Assembly: GCA_021154885.1 (NCBI GenBank) | Contig: JAJKHS010000001.1 | Coordinates: forward strand, 62,001-126,000 | DNA length: 64,000 bases | DNA from: Thermoanaerobaculum sp. | GTDB taxonomy: Bacteria > Acidobacteriota > Thermoanaerobaculia > Multivoradales > UBA5704 | Direction of reading: 5' to 3' | Shown here: piece after piece, positions 1 to 10,761 of the stretch | Numbering within the stretch: the stretch's first letter is position 1 | How the letters are laid out: each line of letters starts with the position of its first letter | Made by a program: the position numbers and the translations under genes | Notes under the pieces: model-generated | What the model saw: the letters and a program-made list of their open reading frames with translations, nothing else | What the model was told of the DNA's origin: nothing | Database searches by the model: none

Positions 1-19
1 TCAGGAGCCGCTGCTCGTC

Positions 20-1232
20 GTTTCAATCCACGCCCCCGCGCGGGGGGCGACCGCACGCCCCGAGCACCGACTGCCCCCTCTATCAGGTTTCAATCCACGC
101 CCCCGCGCGGGGGGCGACGACCGGGGTTCGGTTTCAGAGTCACCGGACCTACGACGGTTTCAATCCACGCCCCCGCGCGGGGGGCGACGACCGGGCACCG
201 GCCCACGCCGGAGGACACGGTATACAGTTTCAATCCACGCCCCCGCGCGGGGGGCGACGACGATCGGCGTAAGTCGCTGGGGTTTAATGGTGACAGTTTC
301 AATCCACGCCCCCGCGCGGGGGGCGACGACCTACGGCCCGTGCGATCCGGGCGACACGGAACAGTTTCAATCCACGCCCCCGCGCGGGGGGCGACGACCA
401 CTGGTAACACCGTAATCTGGCCCTCCTGCGATGGTTTCAATCCACGCCCCCGCGCGGGGGGCGACGACCCTTCGATGTCACCGTCAAGGACGGTGGGCTG
501 GACGTTTCAATCCACGCCCCCGCGCGGGGGGCGACGACCGGCTGGGCCCCAGGGCATCCGCACGCGGCGATCGGTTTCAATCCACGCCCCCGCGCGGGGG
601 GCGACGACTTGTTGATGCTCTGGGGCCGCTGGCTGATCAGCGTGTTTCAATCCACGCCCCCGCGCGGGGGGCGACGACGCGACGGCGTTTCTCCTGATCC
701 CCTTCGATCTGGTGTTTCAATCCACGCCCCCGCGCGGGGGGCGACGACCTCAGCCTCCAGGATGGCCTCGCCATTCAAAAAGTTTCAATCCACGCCCCCG
801 CGCGGGGGGCGACGACAGGGCGGCGTGCGGTCGGTGCGTGTTGGCGATCTGGTTTCAATCCACGCCCCCGCGCGGGGGGCGACGACATGTACGACCACGC
901 ATTCACCACGACGGAGCAGCCGTTTCAATCCACGCCCCCGCGCGGGGGGCGACGACGGCAACCGCAAGCCGCAGGTGTGGGGCATCCGGCGTTTCAATCC
1001 ACGCCCCCGCGCGGGGGGCGACGACCCGTGCCCTGCCATGTGTCGAGCATCCAGAAATCGTTTCAATCCACGCCCCCGCGCGGGGGGCGACGACGCGAGG
1101 ATGCCGTTGCCGGCCCCGTCCTTGGTCAGTTTCAATCCACGCCCCCGCGCGGGGGGCGACGACCTGGGCTGCCGCGATCGAGAGTCTTGTTCAACGGGTT
1201 TCAATCCACGCCCCCGCGCGGGGGGCGACGAC
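20..1232 (-). CRISPR. Type I-C CRISPR array, 18 repeats, 17 spacers
   Basis: Repeats begin at 20, 87, 157, 227, 296, 364, 434, 504, 574, 644, 714, 782, 852, 922, 991, 1060, 1129 and 1198. The 35-bp unit starts GTTTCAATCCACGC and ends GGGGGGCGACGAC on the plus strand. The crRNA is read from the minus strand, where the unit ends in the I-C-type handle GTGGATTGAAAC and carries a CGCCCCC/GGGGGCG stem. Spacers are 32-35 bp. By eye all copies agree except the leftmost (20), which lacks the final GAC and so looks like the usual 32-bp I-C repeat. The cas genes and leader lie at the high-coordinate end. Bases 1-19 are a spacer or trailer, so the array may continue outside the window. Confidence 0.98.
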
Positions 1233-1792: not shown

Positions 1793-2083
1793 TCAGACGA
1801 CCATGGGTCCGTCGAGGTCCAGCACCGTCTTGATCCCGAAGTGCTCGACGCGCCCTTTCCAGTTGCTGCCGAGCTGGTAGAAGCGCAGGCTGTCCTCTTC
1901 CGCATTGTACTCCTGGAGGAGACGGTGCCGGAGCTGCGCCCATTGGGTCGGGTCGACGGGGCACTCGAAGACGGAGTTCTGCACCCGCTGGCCAAAATCG
2001 AGACAGATCTTGGCCACACGGCGCAGACGCCGGCGGCCGGCGGCGTCGACCGTGGATACGTCGTAGCTGACCAGGACCATCAT
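1793..2083 (-). CDS. cas2: CRISPR adaptation protein Cas2
   Basis: A 96-residue Cas2, the usual family length. The N-terminus MVLVSYDVST is the first beta strand of the ferredoxin-like fold and carries the conserved Asp. FECPVDPTQW and the C-terminal strand VLDLDGPMVV fit the I-C subgroup. Two adjacent ATGs (2083 and 2080) are possible starts. Cas2 forms the dimeric core of the Cas1-Cas2 integrase that inserts new spacers at the leader end of the array. It is the last cas gene, 30 bp after cas1, and points toward the array. Confidence 0.96.
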   Translation of the reverse strand: MMVLVSYDVSTVDAAGRRRLRRVAKICLDFGQRVQNSVFECPVDPTQWAQLRHRLLQEYNAEEDSLRFYQLGSNWKGRVEHFGIKTVLDLDGPMVV

Positions 2084-2113: not shown

Positions 2114-3145
2114 TCATTTCCAGAGGAAGGGTGGATAGCCGTCCAGGTCGCCGCGCAGGTGGCGGGCGAGGAGTGCGGCCTGGAGGTGGGGGAGGAGCCC
2201 CACGGTCGTCTTGTCGCCGAGGAAGGGATGGACGATCTCTTCCTGCTTGCGTTTCTGATATGCCACCAGGACGGCTTTCCGCGTCGCGTCGTCCATGACC
2301 ACGCCTCCCGACTCTTCGGTGCGGAAGCCGTCGGCGCGGATCTGCTGCAGGTTGACGAGCGAGAGGGCCAGACGGTCGGCGAGAAAGGCGCGCAGCTCTT
2401 CCATGAGGTCGAGGGCCAGGCTGGCACGGCCGGGGCGGTCGCGGTGCAGGAAGCCCACCGCCGGGTCGAGCCCCACGGACTCCAGGGCGGCCTCGAAGTC
2501 GTGCCGCAGCAGGGTGTAGAGAAAGGAGAGGAGGGCGTTGACGTTGTCCAGGGGCGGCCGGCGGCTGCGCTCGCGGAAGGAGAAACCGTCCTTTTGCTGC
2601 GTGATCAGATCGTCGAAGACTTCGAAGTAGACGCGGGCGGCCGTGCCTTCGATCCCTCGCAGGGTGTCAAGGGGGACGCCCTCCTTGAGCGCGGCGAGGT
2701 GCTGGGCGAGCTGGGCCACGGCCGCTTTCAGGCGCTCGGCACCGGCCGATTCGGGGCGGTCGCGCAGGGCGCGCAGGATCACCGTCCGGCTGTTGGCGAC
2801 TTTGCCGGCGATGACGCTGCGGGCGAGGGCGGCCGAGGCGGTGGGATCGTCGGCCCGGCGATATTGCTCGCGCCGCAACAGGACGTTGCCCGAGACCGGC
2901 CCCTGGATGCGCGCCAGGAAACGGCCGTTCTCGCTCAGGAACGACACGGCCACGCCCCGCTGGCCGCACAGGCCGAGGAGGAACGGGCTGAATCCCACCT
3001 GGCCGAAGCAGACGATGCCGCCGAGGGTGTGAATGGGCACCCGCATCACGACCAGCGCGTCGAGGCGGACGATCACCGCTTCGCCCTCTTTCGCGAGATA
3101 GCAACCCTGGGTGGTGACGTATAAAGTGTTGAGATGGCGTTTCAT
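2114..3145 (-). CDS. cas1: CRISPR integrase Cas1
   Basis: A 343-residue Cas1, typical of subtype I-C. It starts MKRHLNTLYVTTQGCYL, a hallmark N-terminus. The catalytic region reads LDPAVGFLHRDRPG followed by SLALDLMEE, giving the conserved His and acidic residues of the metal-dependent integrase. The ATG at 3145 overlaps the cas4 stop (ATGA), so translation is probably coupled. A longer open frame upstream lies inside cas4 and is not used. Together with Cas2 it integrates protospacers; Cas4 next to it would trim them and set the PAM. Confidence 0.97.
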   Translation of the reverse strand: MKRHLNTLYVTTQGCYLAKEGEAVIVRLDALVVMRVPIHTLGGIVCFGQVGFSPFLLGLCGQRGVAVSFLSENGRFLARIQGPVSGNVLLRREQYRRADDPTASAALARSVIAGKVANSRTVILRALRDRPESAGAERLKAAVAQLAQHLAALKEGVPLDTLRGIEGTAARVYFEVFDDLITQQKDGFSFRERSRRPPLDNVNALLSFLYTLLRHDFEAALESVGLDPAVGFLHRDRPGRASLALDLMEELRAFLADRLALSLVNLQQIRADGFRTEESGGVVMDDATRKAVLVAYQKRKQEEIVHPFLGDKTTVGLLPHLQAALLARHLRGDLDGYPPFLWK

Positions 3146-3843
3146 GCGGGCTCCTGGCTCTCGTCGCGTTCGCCGTTGGCCGGCTGGAGCAGGCGGTCGA
3201 GAAAGCGGCGGGCGGAATGGGCGGGCGCGCCGGGCAGACAGAGATCGATCAGCGAGCATTGATCACATTTCGGCTCGCGGACGGGCTTGGGTGTGACGCC
3301 GGAGGCGAGCAGGCGGTGGAGGCGGGCGGCGGCCTCTTCGGTCTCGCGGCGCAGGTCGTCGCCGAAGGAGACGTCGAGCCGCCGGCGGGTCTGGCCATAG
3401 AAGAGGGCACCGGCGGGCACGGGCGTGCCGAGCATCTCTTCCAGGCACAGGCCTTGAGCGCAGAGCTGGACCTCGTCGGCGTGGTGGGGCTTGGGCCGGC
3501 CCCGCTTGTATTCGACGGGAAAGGGGCGCCAGACGCCGGGGATCCCCGGCAGGGAGGCCCCCGGCTCGCCGGCCTCGGTGTCGGCAGAGATCCGGTGGAG
3601 CTCGACGAGGTCCGCCCGTCCCACGAGGCCGAGCCGCAGGCTGCGCAGGGGGAGGGCGCGGGCGAAGCGCACGTCGCCACGGCTCTCCCCGGGCGCAGTG
3701 TCCACCCGTTCATGGAGATGCCGGCCTTGCACGGTGAGCGTGTTCTCGGCCCACAACTGCTCCAAGTGGATCAGCGCCGCCTGCCGCTCGCAGAACAACA
3801 GGTGCTGCAGGGCGGAGATCGGCAGGAGGTCGTCTTCGTCCAT
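3142..3843 (-). CDS. cas4: CRISPR nuclease Cas4
   Basis: A 233-residue Cas4 of the RecB-like nuclease family. An N-terminal Cys (residue 18, LLFCERQ) and the C-terminal CDQCSLIDLC cluster are the four Fe-S ligands. GRADLVE and EYKRGRPK supply the nuclease Asp and Glu-x-Lys. The start at 3843 shares one base with the cas7 stop, and the stop overlaps the cas1 start, so the gene is coupled on both sides. In type I-C, Cas4 associates with Cas1-Cas2 and processes prespacers with the correct PAM. Confidence 0.95.
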   Translation of the reverse strand: MDEDDLLPISALQHLLFCERQAALIHLEQLWAENTLTVQGRHLHERVDTAPGESRGDVRFARALPLRSLRLGLVGRADLVELHRISADTEAGEPGASLPGIPGVWRPFPVEYKRGRPKPHHADEVQLCAQGLCLEEMLGTPVPAGALFYGQTRRRLDVSFGDDLRRETEEAAARLHRLLASGVTPKPVREPKCDQCSLIDLCLPGAPAHSARRFLDRLLQPANGERDESQEPA

Positions 3844-4766
3844 CACAGCTTCTCGTGCAGCGTCACCCCCGCCGGCAGGCCGTCGCGGTCGAGGGTGATC
3901 TGATATTCGTCGAAGCTGCGGGGCGGCTTGGCGGCGTCCCGCAGGCCGGCGTGGACGCGGCCGAAGAGGGCGTGGGCGGGAGCGTTGCCCAGCGGACTCT
4001 CGTGCTCGAAGACGATCAGCTTGCGGGTGGCCATTTCGCCGCGGGCGGCCGAGCGGTCGTGCTCGAACATGTTGAGCAGGGCCTGCCAGACGAGCTCGAG
4101 GTCCTCTTCGCTGAAGCCGGTGTCCGCGGCGAGATGGGGAGAGACGAAGCCGTGGGCGCGGTAGAGGCCGTAGGGCACGATCTCCTTGCGGCCCATGGTC
4201 CCCACCACCTGGCCGCTCTTTTCGATCTGCGCGTCGGCCTCGCGCTGGGTGGCCACGGCCCTGCGAGTGATCGATTGCTCCAGTGGCATGATGGGATCGA
4301 GGGAGCGCGAAAAGGTGATCTGCACCGGCCCGCGCACCTGGCCGCAATTGATGTCGAGCGTCAGCACGGCGCCGAAGGTGCGGATGTCGAAGTAGGTCTG
4401 GCACATCCAGGCGCGGGCCTTCTCGACGTTCGAAGCCTTGATGTCTTTGGATTTCTCGTCCGTCTTGAGGCCGAGCGTCTCGTAGGCCTGACGATGCAGC
4501 TTCTCCAGCACGCCGTGCTGCTTGACGTAGATGTCGTAGCCGGGCGCCGGGCCGCCGCCCTGAAGGTCGGTCTTGGCGAGCGAGATGAAGTTGCGGACCT
4601 TCCGCTTCAGGGCGACGTCGCTGACCAGGCCGTGGCCGGTCTCGGGATCGACGCGCGGCGCGTTGCCGGCGTCGGGGTCGCCATTGGGATTGCCTTGGGC
4701 GACGTCGTAGAGGAGGACGAAGTCGTAGCGGTGGGCGACGACGGGGCTGGCGGTCGAAAGGGTCAT
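3843..4766 (-). CDS. cas7: Cascade backbone protein Cas7 (Csd2)
   Basis: A 307-residue Cas7/Csd2-type protein. The N-terminal segment YDFVLLYDVAQGNPNGDPD with GNAPRVDPETG is characteristic of I-C Cas7, as is the SDVALKRKVR motif after it. It polymerises along the crRNA spacer as the Cascade backbone. It lies 18 bp after cas8c and overlaps cas4 by one base. The C-terminal segment SFDEYQITLDRDGLPAG is also typical. Confidence 0.96.
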   Translation of the reverse strand: MTLSTASPVVAHRYDFVLLYDVAQGNPNGDPDAGNAPRVDPETGHGLVSDVALKRKVRNFISLAKTDLQGGGPAPGYDIYVKQHGVLEKLHRQAYETLGLKTDEKSKDIKASNVEKARAWMCQTYFDIRTFGAVLTLDINCGQVRGPVQITFSRSLDPIMPLEQSITRRAVATQREADAQIEKSGQVVGTMGRKEIVPYGLYRAHGFVSPHLAADTGFSEEDLELVWQALLNMFEHDRSAARGEMATRKLIVFEHESPLGNAPAHALFGRVHAGLRDAAKPPRSFDEYQITLDRDGLPAGVTLHEKL

Positions 4767-4784: not shown

Positions 4785-6692
4785 TCAGTTCTGGGGTTCG
4801 GCCCCGGTCGTTTCAGCAAGAGTTTCTTCGGTCAGGGTTTCCTGCTCCCGGCGGCGGCGCGTACGCTCCTCCTTGTCGAGGAACAGCTCATGGCGCTGAT
4901 GGTGATAGCCGAGGATGAAGAGACCCTGCTCTTCGAGGGAGAGGGAGGACGGGAAATTCTCGGCACGATCGCCGAGGTCGTGGACGATGCGGTCCACCTG
5001 GCGCTCGACGAGCACCGCTCCCCCGGCCACGCGCGGATCGTCCTTGGCCTTGCGCACGTGGTGGCGGAAATTCTTGAGCAGGCGGATGAAGACGACGCGC
5101 GGCGTGGCCGAGGCGGCGCTGAAGAAGCGGTCCACGACGGAGGCGTTGACGTCGCCGCCGAGGGCGAGCTGCTGGGTGCGCTCCAGGAGCGCCATCAGCC
5201 GGCCCAGCAGGTAGCCGGGTTGAGCATTGTTCGGATCCATGGCTTCGGTGACCTCCGGATAGGGGGCGGTGGCCTGGTGGAAGCGCCGGCGCCGGTTGAG
5301 CACGGCTTTGATCAGGGCGGCGCGGGCATCGCGCCGTTCGAGGTCGGCCCATTCGCTGCGGCCGATTTCGGCGCGGGCGCGCTCCAGGGCGCGCTGCAGG
5401 ATGGAGATGGGATAGGCGATGCCGGTGAGCGCCGCGTTCACGAGCTGGCCGGCGAGCGCCGCGGGCACGCTCTTGTCGTCGCCGCGGATGGCGAGGGAGC
5501 GCAGCAGGACGCGGAAAGCGAGGGCCGGGGCGAGCGGCCGGCCCTTGGGCGGCGGAGTGTTGCGCACGATCGCCAAGTCGCGGAAGTGCTCGGCCAGATG
5601 CGTCGCCACGTCGCGGACGTGGGTCTCCAGCCAGTCGCGCAGGATCAGCCGCCCCTGGGAGCCCGAGAGGGTGAGGGCGTAGAAGGCCGCGGGGTCTTCG
5701 AGATCGATTTCCTTTCCCGTCCAAAGCGAGCGGTACAGCTCGCGGACGCTCTCGGGGTTGGCCTCCAGCAGAGCGATGATCTGGCTGGCGAAGTCGTCGC
5801 CGGCCGTGGGGGCCCAGAAGCAGACGGCGGTGTCGGCGCTGAGCCGCAGGTTGCGTGAAGGGAGTGTCTGGCCGGGCTGCGTGGGATCGGGGAACGCCGG
5901 GTGGAGCAGGCGGTTGAGGGCCGTGGAGCAAGCCTCCGCGGCCTCGCGGGAAATGTGGGCGTTGTCGTTTCCCGCCCAGCCATAGGATTCGAAGGCGTTG
6001 CTGTTGAACGAGACCAGGGCCACGCCGCTGGTGGAGCCGCCGGGGACGTTCTTGATCAACGGCACCGTGCCCGCCCGCGGCGCCAAGCGGCCCGAGACGA
6101 GACAGAGCTGGAGCTCATCGCTGCCCTCTGCCGGCAGGGCGCGCAGCGATCGCCAGTGCTCCCGGACCTTGGGGCGCGAGGTGACGAGCTGGTCGACGTC
6201 GGGAGCGTAGACGAAGCCGAAGAGGTCGTTGCCGGCGCACCCTTCGGGAAGGGAGATGGCGATCTCGCCCCGGCCGAGCCGGTCGAGGAAGCGGCAGACG
6301 GCGCGCACGCCCTCGTCGCCCGTCGCCGCCAGACACTCCTCGGCGCGCTGGCGGAAGAGGGCGAAGCGAGTGGCGAGCTTCTCGGGCTCGCGGCGCTTGC
6401 CGGGATCGGTCTCGGGATCGCGGCCGAGAGCGTACTCGGCTTTGTCGAAGAGGAAGAAAGCGCGGTCGCCGCTGGTGCGGCCGGGCTCGCGCGGCACGAG
6501 GAAGTTGGCCGGCCGGGGTCGCGGCTTCTTCTTTCCCTCCTCGGAGGAAGGAATCGTGTGGGTGCCGTGGACGCCGAGGAGCGAGCCGTCGTCGCCGACG
6601 GTGATCAGCCAGGCGAGCGGCTTCCACTCGAAGTCCGGATCCTCCATCAGGTGCTCGGTCTCGGCGAGCTGATAGAGCGCCTGAAGGATCAC
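4785..6692 (-). CDS. cas8c: Cascade large subunit Cas8c (Csd1)
   Basis: A 635-residue Csd1/Cas8c, near family length. The start is the GTG at 6692, which overlaps the cas5c stop (GTGA) and gives VILQALYQLAE, the typical Csd1 N-terminus; the longer open frame upstream is the shadow of cas5c. Csd1 features include WLITVGDDG near the N-terminus, FNSNAFESYGW in the middle and GYLLGRLMALLERTQ toward the C-terminus. In I-C, Cas8c recognises the PAM and internal translation of its 3' end supplies the small subunit Cas11. I did not locate that internal start. Confidence 0.95.
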   Translation of the reverse strand: MILQALYQLAETEHLMEDPDFEWKPLAWLITVGDDGSLLGVHGTHTIPSSEEGKKKPRPRPANFLVPREPGRTSGDRAFFLFDKAEYALGRDPETDPGKRREPEKLATRFALFRQRAEECLAATGDEGVRAVCRFLDRLGRGEIAISLPEGCAGNDLFGFVYAPDVDQLVTSRPKVREHWRSLRALPAEGSDELQLCLVSGRLAPRAGTVPLIKNVPGGSTSGVALVSFNSNAFESYGWAGNDNAHISREAAEACSTALNRLLHPAFPDPTQPGQTLPSRNLRLSADTAVCFWAPTAGDDFASQIIALLEANPESVRELYRSLWTGKEIDLEDPAAFYALTLSGSQGRLILRDWLETHVRDVATHLAEHFRDLAIVRNTPPPKGRPLAPALAFRVLLRSLAIRGDDKSVPAALAGQLVNAALTGIAYPISILQRALERARAEIGRSEWADLERRDARAALIKAVLNRRRRFHQATAPYPEVTEAMDPNNAQPGYLLGRLMALLERTQQLALGGDVNASVVDRFFSAASATPRVVFIRLLKNFRHHVRKAKDDPRVAGGAVLVERQVDRIVHDLGDRAENFPSSLSLEEQGLFILGYHHQRHELFLDKEERTRRRREQETLTEETLAETTGAEPQN

Positions 6693-7372
6693 GCCGCACC
6701 TTCCACGGTTTGAGCGGAGAGAGCGTGCGGCTCGTCGGGCACGGCGAGGACGCCGTGCTCCAGCCGGGCGTGGAAGAAGAGAGGACGGTTGCGCTTGGGG
6801 GCATACTCGACGTCCCAGAGCATCAGGCCGAGGTCCTGGGTGACCTCCTCGGCCGGCGGCGGGTCCGCAACGGGCAGCACCTCGGCGGCCAACTCGCGGC
6901 AGCCGAGATAGGGCTGGTGGAAACACTGCCCCTTGGCCAGCCGGCGCTCGAAGATCTCCACGAACTTGGTGAGGTTGTCGAGCGGCCCCGCCTGCGCGGT
7001 CATCTCGAAACGCGCCTCGATCAGATAGTCCACGTCGCGCAAGGCGAGCGTGTTGCGCTGGGCGCGGTCGTCGTCGGCGAAGTAGGGGGAGACGGGCCCC
7101 CCGTCGCGGACGACGGCGGCGGCCGGGGCCACGGCGCGATGGCCGACCTCATTGCGCCGGAAGGCGAGGAAGCGGATCGGCTTGAGCACGTGGATACGCT
7201 CGATCCGCCAGTGGATGGCCGGTTTCCACAGCACGGCCTCGAGCAGGCCGCGGGCGGCCGAGGGGGTCATCACCGGATAGGAGACCCGCTCGACCTTGAG
7301 CTCCGGCCGGGTGAAGCAGGCGAGCGGACCCCGGGCTCGCAGGCGCAGGGTGGGACTTCGGGGCAGTGACAT
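6689..7372 (-). CDS. cas5c: crRNA-processing protein Cas5c
   Basis: A 227-residue Cas5c (Cas5d). Subtype I-C has no Cas6; this protein cuts the repeat at the base of its stem and stays on the handle. The N-terminus RLRARGPLACFTRPELKVERVSYPVMTPSAARG is a Cas5 signature (positions about 9-42), followed by VLWKPAIHWRIERIHVL. The start at 7372 lies 23 bp after cas3. Its stop overlaps the cas8c GTG. Confidence 0.95.
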   Translation of the reverse strand: MSLPRSPTLRLRARGPLACFTRPELKVERVSYPVMTPSAARGLLEAVLWKPAIHWRIERIHVLKPIRFLAFRRNEVGHRAVAPAAAVVRDGGPVSPYFADDDRAQRNTLALRDVDYLIEARFEMTAQAGPLDNLTKFVEIFERRLAKGQCFHQPYLGCRELAAEVLPVADPPPAEEVTQDLGLMLWDVEYAPKRNRPLFFHARLEHGVLAVPDEPHALSAQTVEGAA

Positions 7373-7395: not shown

Positions 7396-9648
7396 TCAGA
7401 CCACGTAGGTCGCCGGATCGGGGAGCGGATCGTCGTCGGCGATCAGCCCGAAACGGTCGTCGTAGTGATGCCGGAACGCCGGAGTGAGGGCGTTGACGCC
7501 GTCGACCACGGTCTCGAGCGCGCCGGCTTTCATCAATATAGACACGGTCGGTCGCCGAATGTTGATGGTAAATGGCTGCAAGGCGCGCAACCGGAGGCGG
7601 TCGGGGCCGTCCCGGCGCAGGGTGGCGAGCCGCTCCTCGGCCTCGCCGTAGGGTACGACGATGGCCTCGGTCGCATCCTCGATCAGGCGCAGCTCGCGAG
7701 CGACGCTGGCGAAGCGCAACTCCTGGCGCAGCGTTTGGATGCCGGCGGGGTCCTTCTCGCAGAGGACATACAGCTTGCGGAAATAGAGGTCGTACAGGGC
7801 CGGGTCGTCGAGGTCGATCTCGCCGCCCCGTTCGCGCAGCATCTCCTCCACCACGGCCAGCCCTTTCCGGAGAATGCCGGGCGGAGGCTGCGTCTCGGCG
7901 CGGAAGAAGACGACCTCGCCGAGCCGGGGAAGGAGCCGCCCCTCGCGATTGCACCGGCCCGCGGCCTGGGCCAGGCTGTCCAGCCCTCCGAGGCAGCGGT
8001 AGACGACGGGGAAGTCGACGTCCACACCCGCCTCGATGAGCTGCGTCGAGACAAGCCGGCAGGGGCCGTCGCTCTTCAGCCGCTCGCGGACCTCGGCCAG
8101 TTTTCTGGAGCGGTGGGCCGGGCACATCAGGGCGGAGAGGTGGAAGGTCCCCTCCTCCGGCAGGAGCTCGGCCAGCGTGCGGGCGTCCCGGCGCAGGTGG
8201 ACCACGGCGAGCGCCTTCTCGTAGCCGAGCAGCCGGCGCGCCAGCTCGGCGTAGGGGAGCGGGGACTCGCCCGCGGCCGGCCAGACGGGGCGCACGCGCT
8301 TGAGGTCCCGGGCGAGCCCGGCCGGCGCGGGGACGATCTCGTGCACGCCTTGGAGCCCCTGCGGCAGGCTCTCCCGCCGGGCGAGGGCCGGCTGGGTGGC
8401 GGTGGTGAGCACCACCGAGCAGCCATAGTGCTCGACCAGCTCGCGCAGCACGTCGAGAACGGTGAGCAGATAGGGGATGGGCAGCGTCTGCGCCTCGTCG
8501 AGCAGGATCACGCTGCGCGCGATGCGGTGCAGCTTGCGGCAGCGCGAGGGCGAGCTGGCGAAGAGCGACTCGAAGAGCTGGACGTTGGTGGTGACCACGA
8601 GGGGAGCGTCCCAATTCTCGGCGGCGAGCCGGCGGCGCAGCTCGGCCTCGCGGTTGCGCTCCTCTGCAGCCAGGGGATCGAGGGCCGAGTGGTGCTCCAG
8701 CACGTTGCGCTCGCCCAGGGCGTCGACGTAGACCTTCGCGTTCTGCTCGATGATGGTGGTGAACGGGATGGCCACGATCACCCGCCGCAGGTCCCAGCGC
8801 TCGGCGTGCCTCAGAGCGAAGGCCATGGCGGAGAGGGTCTTGCCGCCACCGGTGGGGACGGTGAGGCTGAAGAGGCCGGGCCGGAGCTCGGCCTTCTCCT
8901 GGCAAGCCGCCAGCACCTCGGCCCGTCGCCGGTTGATGGGTGAGGCGCGCCGCTCCGGGGCCAGCCCGGCCACGAAGCCTGCGAGATGCTCGTCGAGGCG
9001 GCGCCGGAGGGTGGGGACGTCGTCGTGCTCCGCGACGTGGGCGCGCCGCCCTGGCGAATAGAACTCCTCGGTGGCCAGGAAGTCCGCGTCCACCAGGGAG
9101 GAGAACAGGAATCGGGTCCACAGCTCCAGGCTGCGGGCCCGCGCGTTCCGGTCGGGATCGGCAGCGAAGCGTGAGGGCAGCGAGGGGACGGCCGGATCGA
9201 TGAGCGCCGTGGGAAGGGCCGCCTTCACCTCGCTCAGTAGAGGAGCGTTCTCTTTCAGGCGGACCTGGAGCGCCTTGGGGCCGCCTTCGGTCGAGGACAG
9301 GAGATCCGCCAGCCCCGCGTGATGGCCGGCGATGGCGAAGGCCAGGGGCAGCCCCGCCACCTGGCCCTTGGAGAGGCCCTTGGAGACGGCGAGCGCCGCT
9401 CCCACCCCTGCGTGCTCGACCGACTCGCGGCTGCCGCGCAGCCGTTCCTGGAACTTCTGTCGGGCCTTCCCCACGTCGTGCCACAACCCCGCGAGGCGTC
9501 CCCACTCTCCGGCTTCGAACGCCGCCGCGAACTCCTCGGCCCGTCCGGCGACGGCGCGGAGGTGAGCTTCCAGGTCCTCCCACTCCGATTCGGGGCGGCC
9601 TGGGAGGGTATGGGCGAAGAGAGGGGGCATTTGGGATTGCATTCCCAC
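7396..9648 (-). CDS. cas3: CRISPR helicase-nuclease Cas3
   Basis: A 750-residue Cas3 with an N-terminal HD nuclease domain (FAHT near residue 13, LWHDVGKA near 57) and an SF2 helicase: Walker A VPTGGGKT near 265, DEAQ in place of DExH as motif II, and STQLIEAGVDVDFP in the C-terminal half. Cascade recruits it to degrade target DNA. It is the first gene of the cas operon. The longest frame begins at GTG 9648; ATGs at 9642 and 9630 are alternatives and none has a strong ribosome site. The start overlaps the putative CRISPR-like RNA target described at 9642-9677. Confidence 0.95.
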   Translation of the reverse strand: MGMQSQMPPLFAHTLPGRPESEWEDLEAHLRAVAGRAEEFAAAFEAGEWGRLAGLWHDVGKARQKFQERLRGSRESVEHAGVGAALAVSKGLSKGQVAGLPLAFAIAGHHAGLADLLSSTEGGPKALQVRLKENAPLLSEVKAALPTALIDPAVPSLPSRFAADPDRNARARSLELWTRFLFSSLVDADFLATEEFYSPGRRAHVAEHDDVPTLRRRLDEHLAGFVAGLAPERRASPINRRRAEVLAACQEKAELRPGLFSLTVPTGGGKTLSAMAFALRHAERWDLRRVIVAIPFTTIIEQNAKVYVDALGERNVLEHHSALDPLAAEERNREAELRRRLAAENWDAPLVVTTNVQLFESLFASSPSRCRKLHRIARSVILLDEAQTLPIPYLLTVLDVLRELVEHYGCSVVLTTATQPALARRESLPQGLQGVHEIVPAPAGLARDLKRVRPVWPAAGESPLPYAELARRLLGYEKALAVVHLRRDARTLAELLPEEGTFHLSALMCPAHRSRKLAEVRERLKSDGPCRLVSTQLIEAGVDVDFPVVYRCLGGLDSLAQAAGRCNREGRLLPRLGEVVFFRAETQPPPGILRKGLAVVEEMLRERGGEIDLDDPALYDLYFRKLYVLCEKDPAGIQTLRQELRFASVARELRLIEDATEAIVVPYGEAEERLATLRRDGPDRLRLRALQPFTINIRRPTVSILMKAGALETVVDGVNALTPAFRHHYDDRFGLIADDDPLPDPATYVV

Positions 9649-9677
9649 AATGAGTAGATCTACTATATCATGGATGA
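9642..9677. promoter_or_regulatory. cas3 promoter/start region with PAM and palindrome
   Basis: TTC at 9642-9644, the canonical I-C PAM, is followed from 9645 by CCACAATGAGTAGATC. This agrees at 13 of 16 positions with the spacer-like sequence at 9749. The site also contains the perfect palindrome AGTAGATCTACT (9653-9664) and, on the minus strand, TATAGT (9663-9668) as a possible -10 for cas3. Binding here could therefore block cas transcription. The -10 call is tentative because no convincing -35 is visible. Confidence 0.5.
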
Positions 9678-9687
9678 GTCGGCGGAA

Positions 9688-9735
9688 GAGTTCCGGGAGT
9701 TCTCTTTTAGCGAGTTCCGGGAGTTCTCTTTTAGC
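9688..9735 (+). repeat. Two tandem 24-bp copies upstream of the crRNA-like element
   Basis: Two perfect 24-bp copies (9688-9711 and 9712-9735), each beginning GAGTTCCGGGAG and ending CTTTTAGC, sit immediately before the orphan CRISPR repeat end. They may contain promoter or protein-binding sequence for the plus-strand element, or be a local slippage duplication. Confidence 0.9.
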
Positions 9736-9795
9736 CGTGGATTGAAACCCACAGTGCGTTGATCACCAGACATCTAGGGGCGGTCATGCCGCCCC
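9736..9795 (+). ncRNA. Putative CRISPR-like (CreR-type) RNA
   Basis: Bases 9736-9748 (CGTGGATTGAAAC) are identical to the 13 bases at the 3' end of the array repeat, that is the crRNA handle, but on the plus strand and alone. The following 28 bases act like a spacer: their first 16 match the cas3 5' region behind a TTC PAM, with differences only at positions 6, 9 and 12. A hairpin GGGGCGG-TCATG-CCGCCCC follows at 9777-9795, in the place of the next repeat's stem. This resembles the solo CRISPR-like units (CreR/CreA) that guide Cascade to repress promoters without cleavage. A complete upstream stem is not present, so processing is uncertain. Confidence 0.5.
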
Positions 9796-9845
9796 GTTCC
9801 TCATGGACGATCACGCAACTCGATATCGCGTCCCGGGAGGGCTCA

Positions 9846-10103
9846 ATGAAGCGCCGTATCTTGCTCAAGAGGATCGCGAGCGGGGCATTCCAAAACGTTG
9901 ATTTCAGGGATATGATTAGCTTGGTGGAGGGTTTGGGCTTCAGGCTTTCCCGGGTGAGTGGCAGCCACCACGTCTTCAGTCACCCGGGAATCCCTGAGTT
10001 GGTCAACCTCCAAGAGGTAGGCGGACAAGTGAAGCCTTATCAGGTAAAGCAGGTGCTTCGCTTGGTGGAATGCTACAATCTGCGCCTTGAGGACGGATCG
10101 TGA
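9846..10103 (+). CDS. hicA: HicA-family mRNA interferase toxin
   Basis: An 85-residue HicA. It starts at ATG 9846, preceded by GGGAGG; an open frame upstream to 9759 crosses the CRISPR-like element and is not used. The double-stranded-RNA-binding-like fold is shown by FRDMISLVEGLGF, then SGSHHVFSHP with the catalytic His, then VNLQEVGGQVKPYQVKQVL. HicA cleaves mRNA unless bound by HicB. Its stop overlaps the hicB GTG start. The position between a crRNA-like element and the antitoxin, next to cas3, recalls toxin modules guarded by Cascade, but HicB already supplies protein control. Confidence 0.93.
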   Translation: MKRRILLKRIASGAFQNVDFRDMISLVEGLGFRLSRVSGSHHVFSHPGIPELVNLQEVGGQVKPYQVKQVLRLVECYNLRLEDGS

Positions 10104-10321
10104 CAGACTACCATATCAACATCTTCTACAGCGACGAGGATGGCGGGTATATCGCCGATATCCCTGATCTTGAGGCGTGCTCCGCGTTCGGTCTCACTCC
10201 GACGGAGGCACTGGCCGAGTTGGAACAGGCTAAGGAAGCCTGGCTGGCGGTCGCGCGGGAAACCGGGAAGCCCATCCCCGCACCACGCTATCGGCCGCTC
10301 ATCTACCAAGTGGCCGGTTGA
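10100..10321 (+). CDS. hicB: HicB-family antitoxin
   Basis: A 73-residue short HicB with the partial RNase H-like fold: YHINIFYSDEDGGYIADIPDLEACSAFG, then TPTEALAELEQAKEAWL, then PRYRP. It begins with GTG at 10100 in a GTGA overlap with hicA, so the pair is co-translated. It should bind HicA and block its active site. No C-terminal DNA-binding helix domain is present, so autoregulation may need another factor. Confidence 0.92.
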   Translation: MTDYHINIFYSDEDGGYIADIPDLEACSAFGLTPTEALAELEQAKEAWLAVARETGKPIPAPRYRPLIYQVAG

Positions 10322-10590: not shown

Positions 10591-10761
10591 ATGAACAAGC
10601 GAGTCAAGCGGCTGAGCCTTCACAAAGAAACCCTTCGTTCTCTGACGGACGAGCATCTCCACGGTGTCGCGGGAGGCTTCATAACCCAGGTATGCCCCTG
10701 TTCCAAGACGTGCGATTCCTGCAGCCCCTGCACCCTCGGACAAAGCTGCGTCGCTGGCTGA
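10591..10761 (+). CDS. Lanthipeptide-type precursor peptide 1
   Basis: A 56-residue peptide starting at ATG 10591 behind AAGGAGG (10577-10583). The leader contains LSLHKETLRSLTDEHL and ends VAGG, matching the class I lanthipeptide leader type known from Bacteroidota and Acidobacteriota (L.L.KETLR.L, then a GG site). The core has six Cys (VCPCSKTCDSCSPCTLGQSC) with several Ser and Thr. Its modification enzymes are not adjacent; the nearest LanC-type proteins lie at 42-50 kb. It belongs with the peptides at 23512-23679 and 48762-48968. The type of modification is inferred from the leader only. Confidence 0.8.
   Translation: MNKRVKRLSLHKETLRSLTDEHLHGVAGGFITQVCPCSKTCDSCSPCTLGQSCVAG

Follow-up and report, generated by a model that had tools for sequence, protein, structure and literature searches.

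We identified, in a 64,000-nucleotide stretch of a Thermoanaerobaculum sp. contig (hereafter the window), an element at positions 9736–9795 that most likely represents a type I-C CreR, an RNA-guided autorepressor of the cas operon; judging from its sequence and that of its counterparts in other genomes, we assign this reading a probability of about 0.84. CreR as a kind is already known, and the novelty lies in a type I-C member with variant features, namely the lack of a 5′ repeat hairpin and one mismatch in the seed. A computational survey by Shmakov et al. in NAR in 2023 reportedly described standalone-repeat crRNA-like elements, mostly from type I systems, that match cas promoters, and it may include type I-C. 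Autorepression of cas promoters by CreRs has been established for types I-B, I-E, and V-A (PMC13131331), and this repression is sensitive to both crRNA load and anti-CRISPRs (PMC13131331; PMC12737573). Type I-C is not among the experimentally shown CreR subtypes listed in the review (PMC13131331).

The window contains a complete I-C set on the minus strand with cas3 as the first gene (cas3-cas5c-cas8c-cas7-cas4-cas1-cas2), and the repeat of the associated array is also of the I-C type (Table 1). The 3′ end of this repeat, CGTGGATTGAAAC, is present in 18 minus-strand copies in the array at 1–1230. A single plus-strand copy, where 0 were expected by chance, is found at 9736–9748, in agreement with the first-pass annotation, which had reported a lone repeat end at this site. 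Mature I-C crRNAs start with an 11-nt handle, and the sequence at 9736–9748 consists of the 11-nt I-C handle TGGATTGAAAC followed by CG. Outside the array, it is the only copy of the array-repeat 3′ end that occupies a meaningful position; a second lone TGGATTGAAAC, on contig C4, was judged to be a chance match.

Table 1. Features of the type I-C locus and the putative CreR in the window. The candidate −10, the palindrome, and the tandem duplication were read directly from the sequence.
Feature	Position	Strand	Remarks
End of CRISPR array, about 140 repeats	1..1230	-	continues beyond the window
cas2	1793..2083	-	TIGR01573
cas1c	2114..3259	-	TIGR03640
cas4	3142..3825	-	start approximate
cas7c (Csd2)	3843..4766	-	
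cas8c (Csd1)	4785..6713	-	
cas5c	6689..7369	-	TIGR01876
cas3 (I-C), at the head of the presumably repressed operon	7396..9642	-	start at 9642 or 9631
PAM of target, TTC	9642..9644	+	TTC also precedes targets in relatives
Promoter-like site TTCCCA-18-TATCAT, beneath target	9642..9671	+	directed toward element and hicAB; 9/12, 0.1 expected in shuffles
Target (protospacer strand)	9645..9680	+	pairing expected only over about 9645–9660
Palindrome AGTAGATCTACT	9653..9664	.	
Candidate extended −10 of cas promoter, TGATATAGT	9662..9670	-	putative; within target footprint
Perfect tandem duplication, 24-bp unit GAGTTCCGGGAGTTCTCTTTTAGC	9688..9735	.	abuts handle
Repeat-derived 5′ handle of putative CreR	9736..9748	+	exact copy of array repeat 3′ end
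Spacer-like guide, 28 nt, seed CCACAGTGCGT	9749..9776	+	13/16 match to TTC-adjoining 9645–9660
GC hairpin at the 3′ end of the putative RNA	9777..9795	+	from fold; candidate stand-in for 3′ repeat stem or terminator
hicA toxin gene, neighbour	9846..10103	+	PF07927
hicB-like antitoxin gene, neighbour	10100..10321	+	PF21748/PF15919

The guide bases at 9749–9764 (CCACAGTGCGTTGATC) are identical to 9645–9660 (CCACAATGAGTAGATC) at 13 of 16 positions, with mismatches at positions 6, 9, and 12 and the I-C PAM, TTC, preceding the matched site, exactly as had been reported. Since the mismatch at position 9, a C facing a T, falls within the seed formed by positions 1–5 and 7–11, the window seed is matched at 9 of 10 positions and is not perfect. 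Beyond the minimal seed, pairing of the guide reaches position 16. The GC hairpin noted earlier is likewise present (GGGGCGG-TCATG-CCGCCCC, a 7 bp stem with a 5-nt loop), though without a T-run. A fold search identified no stem abutting the handle on its 5′ side, and the tandem duplication at 9688–9735 occupies the site of the repeat hairpin in relatives. Within the element region, a sigma-70 consensus scan yielded neither a minus-strand promoter nor a terminator, and no clear promoter of the element's own was found at this locus. An Rfam search of 9500–10000 gave no match, and a DNA similarity search of 99 related genomes gave two weak matches only, both in the hicAB half. The target had been described as overlapping the cas3 start, a palindrome, and a possible −10, and this description holds; the candidate −10 at 9662–9670 was not recovered by a consensus scan.

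The masked pattern TTCCCACANTGNGTNGATC is matched in full only once in the 8.2-Mb genome, at the target. When the 141 array spacers were treated as guides against TTC sites in 2.6 kb around the 5′ end of cas3, none (0/141) reached 12 of 14 informative matches and the best reached 11, versus 13/14 for the element. Among random 16-mers from the window, 1 in 3000 scored 13. Taken from the window genome alone, these chance statistics constitute good but not overwhelming evidence, and relatives were therefore needed.

Type I-C cas3 loci were drawn from species genomes, from the phylum, order, and class of the window genome, from viral contigs, and from plasmids, resulting in a sample that is biased toward Cas3 proteins resembling the query. 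Loci were searched for a handle-like 11-mer followed by a guide that matched a site close by with TTC in front of it, with only positions 1–5 and 7–11 being scored. The strict threshold was passed by 20 of 129 I-C loci, versus 0 loci in each of 12 decoy trials with shuffled handles, and a looser threshold added L085 and L134 for 22 loci in all (of about 125). The comparison thus supports the earlier reading of the element as an autorepressor of the I-C cas operon. About 100 of the 125 sampled I-C loci had no detectable element, and loose handle searches of L034–L038, L115, and L126–L130 returned nothing. As named in their records, the element-bearing loci are from Acidobacteriota, Planctomycetes, Verrucomicrobia, Kiritimatiellae, Desulfobacterota-type bacteria, Desulfosporosinus, several Proteobacteria, and Entotheonella, and they also include one plasmid and two viral contigs; cultured carriers include Azotobacter vinelandii CA (L085) and Tistrella mobilis (L163). 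L132 and L134 are IMG/VR contigs that are classed as viral and carry an I-C cas3 and guide/target pairs. A likely further pair, with TTT rather than TTC as the PAM, a 10/10 seed, and an A at position 6, is located at about 3720–3770 of the Poribacteria locus L109.

In the 22 guide-target pairs, each of positions 1–5, 7–11, and 13 is matched in 19–22 pairs, positions 6 and 12 are matched in 4 and 3 pairs, respectively, and matching declines after about 15–16. The proposal that the differences at 6 and 12 fit a Cascade guide is thereby upheld, as mismatches concentrate at these positions, and because neither was scored in the search, the low matching there provides an independent signature of such a guide. 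The mean seed match is 9.68/10 for own pairs versus 3.28/10 for cross pairs among the 22 loci. Each locus thus has a guide of its own that fits its own target and not those of the others, indicating that guide and target changed together. One seed mismatch is present in 7 of the 22 loci, the sequences are unrelated between loci, and all four strand combinations occur.

The layout of the element also recurs. A hairpin starts 16–37 nt past the handle in 22/22 loci (weak in L058), and several of the relatives' hairpins end in T-runs, like intrinsic terminators. In most loci the guide is preceded on its 5′ side by a repeat that is degenerate but can still fold, of the form GTC-stem-loop-stem-TGGATTGAAAC. 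Position 6 of the target, read on the protospacer strand, is an A in 20/22 pairs against a background of 27% (binomial P about 5e-10), with examples at window position 9650 and in L054, L125, L132, and L163. This bias lies outside the scored seed, the guide base at this position is rarely an A, and no comparable bias is seen at position 12. The occurrence of the element varies with the gap between cas3 and cas5c: it was found in 8/8 loci with a gap of 300–500 bp, 3/6 with more than 500 bp, 2/3 with 200–300 bp, 3/8 with 120–200 bp, 0/11 with 60–120 bp, and 5/76 with less than 60 bp. If the two genes are tightly joined, as in the window (about 27 nt), the element is ahead of cas3; if they are far apart, it is between them. 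In general, the element is located ahead of the Cascade genes.

The first-pass annotation had been staked on conservation of the seed-target pairing in relatives, and the pairing is conserved, with covariation, including in a genome of the same family (G003), whose cas3 is 67% identical to that of the window genome. The element at this locus (L125, 4630–4700) consists of TGGATTGAAAC and the guide AGTGTCTGAGC, which differs from that of the window and matches its target, TTC-AGTGTATGAGC on the opposite strand, at 10/10 seed positions. The hairpins of the two family members share the stem core GGGGCGG/CCGCCCC. As both lack the 5′ repeat stem, the 5′ end of the RNA is probably set by the transcription start or by trimming. 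Between the guide target and cas3, L125 contains a gene for an NYN-domain (PIN-like nuclease) protein at 3724–4338, apparently the first gene of the putatively repressed operon.

In the mechanism that we propose, 9736–9795 would encode a minimal crRNA-like RNA comprising the repeat-derived 5′ handle, the 28-nt guide, and the 3′ hairpin. This RNA is predicted to start at or close to UGGAUUGAAAC and to end with the hairpin. Given that no stem lies beside the handle, Cas5c could not make this 5′ end in the usual way. The RNA is expected to load into I-C Cascade, competing with the crRNAs of the large array, and the complex would bind beside the TTC PAM at 9642–9644 through seed-only pairing (positions 1–5, 7–8, 10–11, and 13–16), so that the cas3 start and the candidate −10 would both be covered. 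Since such pairing is too short for cleavage by Cas3, the predicted outcome is repression of the entire operon from cas3 to cas2 with no cleavage. If crRNAs or anti-CRISPR proteins occupied Cascade, repression would be relieved; I-C expression is thus predicted to sense crRNA load and anti-CRISPRs, which is relevant to the use of native I-C systems.

The element resembles the CreRs of types I-B, I-E, and V-A in that a crRNA-like RNA is predicted beside the cas genes, with a partial, PAM-adjoining match to the cas promoter and presumed autorepression. Unlike these CreRs, the window element belongs to type I-C, its repeat is cut to a 13-nt handle, its seed contains one mismatch, and its 3′ end is a hairpin with no recognizable second repeat. 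It also resembles the CreA of the haloarchaeal I-B CreTA system, for which the rule is a TTC PAM, a seed at 1–5 and 7–11, and free positions 6 and 12 (PMC8501985), whereas its target is the cas operon and not an RNA toxin. A one-repeat form of CreA ending in a terminator is known, and any single seed change abolished the function of haloarchaeal CreA (PMC8501985). The weak points of the CreR reading are the seed mismatch at position 9, the missing 5′ stem, and the lack of a clear promoter of its own or a T-run terminator.

Several other explanations were weighed against this reading. The annotation had suggested that the element might also control hicAB, and a toxin-linked variant, similar to CreTA or CrePA, would make the plus-strand promoter to hicAB the main target, such that loss of Cascade would release HicA. 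The promoter-like site beneath the target does point toward hicAB, and in an analogous I-C locus, L091, a VapC-like PIN gene is flanked by the target, just ahead of it, and by the guide, behind it. However, no second target is found near hicAB, L125 shows no hicAB next to its element, HicA and HicB are encoded together, and the target lies on the cas3 start. Control of hicAB is thus unsupported and the toxin-linked variant unlikely; on the strength of the promoter-like site, joint control of hicAB with the cas operon is possible, at most. The element could instead be a decayed remnant, namely a CreR or solo repeat that has lost its function, as the 9/10 seed, the absence of a psiR1 stem, and the absence of a clear promoter would suggest. 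We consider decay quite unlikely, as pairing runs to position 16, past the minimal seed, the 3′ hairpin is intact, and L125, from the same family, combines a missing repeat stem with a 10/10 seed.

A protein-based explanation treats 9645–9660 and 9749–9764 as a direct-repeat operator, two binding sites for a cas or hicAB regulator, with the adjoining handle a coincidence or relic. The two copies share the same orientation at a distance of 104 bp, one contains a palindrome, and hicAB is adjacent. An operator would account for neither the TTC PAM, the exact adjacency of the handle, and the mismatches at 6 and 12, nor the presence of this arrangement at 22 loci whose sequences are unrelated and among which every one of the four strand combinations occurs, and is very improbable. 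An anti-CRISPR RNA (Racr), in which a solo repeat would block Cas proteins without acting as a guide, is hardly credible: the window element is a solitary repeat unit and Racrs are known for type I-C (PMC10651486), but a Racr resides in a viral genome away from cas genes, whereas this element is within the cas locus, at the 5′ end of an intact set of I-C cas genes, and its guide matches the cas promoter. The operator, the Racr, and chance were all rejected.

Read as a type I-C CreR, the element brings type I-C into the range of RNA-guided cas autorepression on comparative evidence from many phyla, and it provides a simple genomic rule for finding such elements, namely a solo handle ahead of the Cascade operon. 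More tentatively, type I-C systems may broadly carry a CreR class of their own, a generalization that we regard as possible rather than probable. Such CreRs would precede whichever gene opens the Cascade operon (cas3, or cas5c where a gap of about 300–500 bp sets it apart from cas3) and have a hairpin as their 3′ end. They would also show an I-C-specific A at protospacer position 6, suggestive of base-specific reading of the flipped-out target base, and some copies would be tied to toxins (VapC in L091, perhaps HicA in the window). The position-6 bias poses a testable structural question on Cascade.

A number of small open frames and genes near these elements were also observed. In the window, a short gene at 10591–10761 encodes a product that looks like a RiPP leader peptide carrying a Cys-rich core and has no Pfam match. 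A search for a conserved small protein between target and guide in gammaproteobacterial loci turned up small open frames (L085, 6251–6460; L084, 6299–6484), and neither of these two scanned frames has a Pfam match; in the Azotobacter locus, L085, the frame terminates inside the handle region and its product may be a membrane peptide. At 2790–3650 of L091, from Opitutaceae, the VapC-like PIN gene follows a likely antitoxin gene in the cas3-cas5c gap, and the guide just behind it has a perfect-seed target just ahead of it, making this gene a candidate CRISPR-controlled toxin in type I-C.
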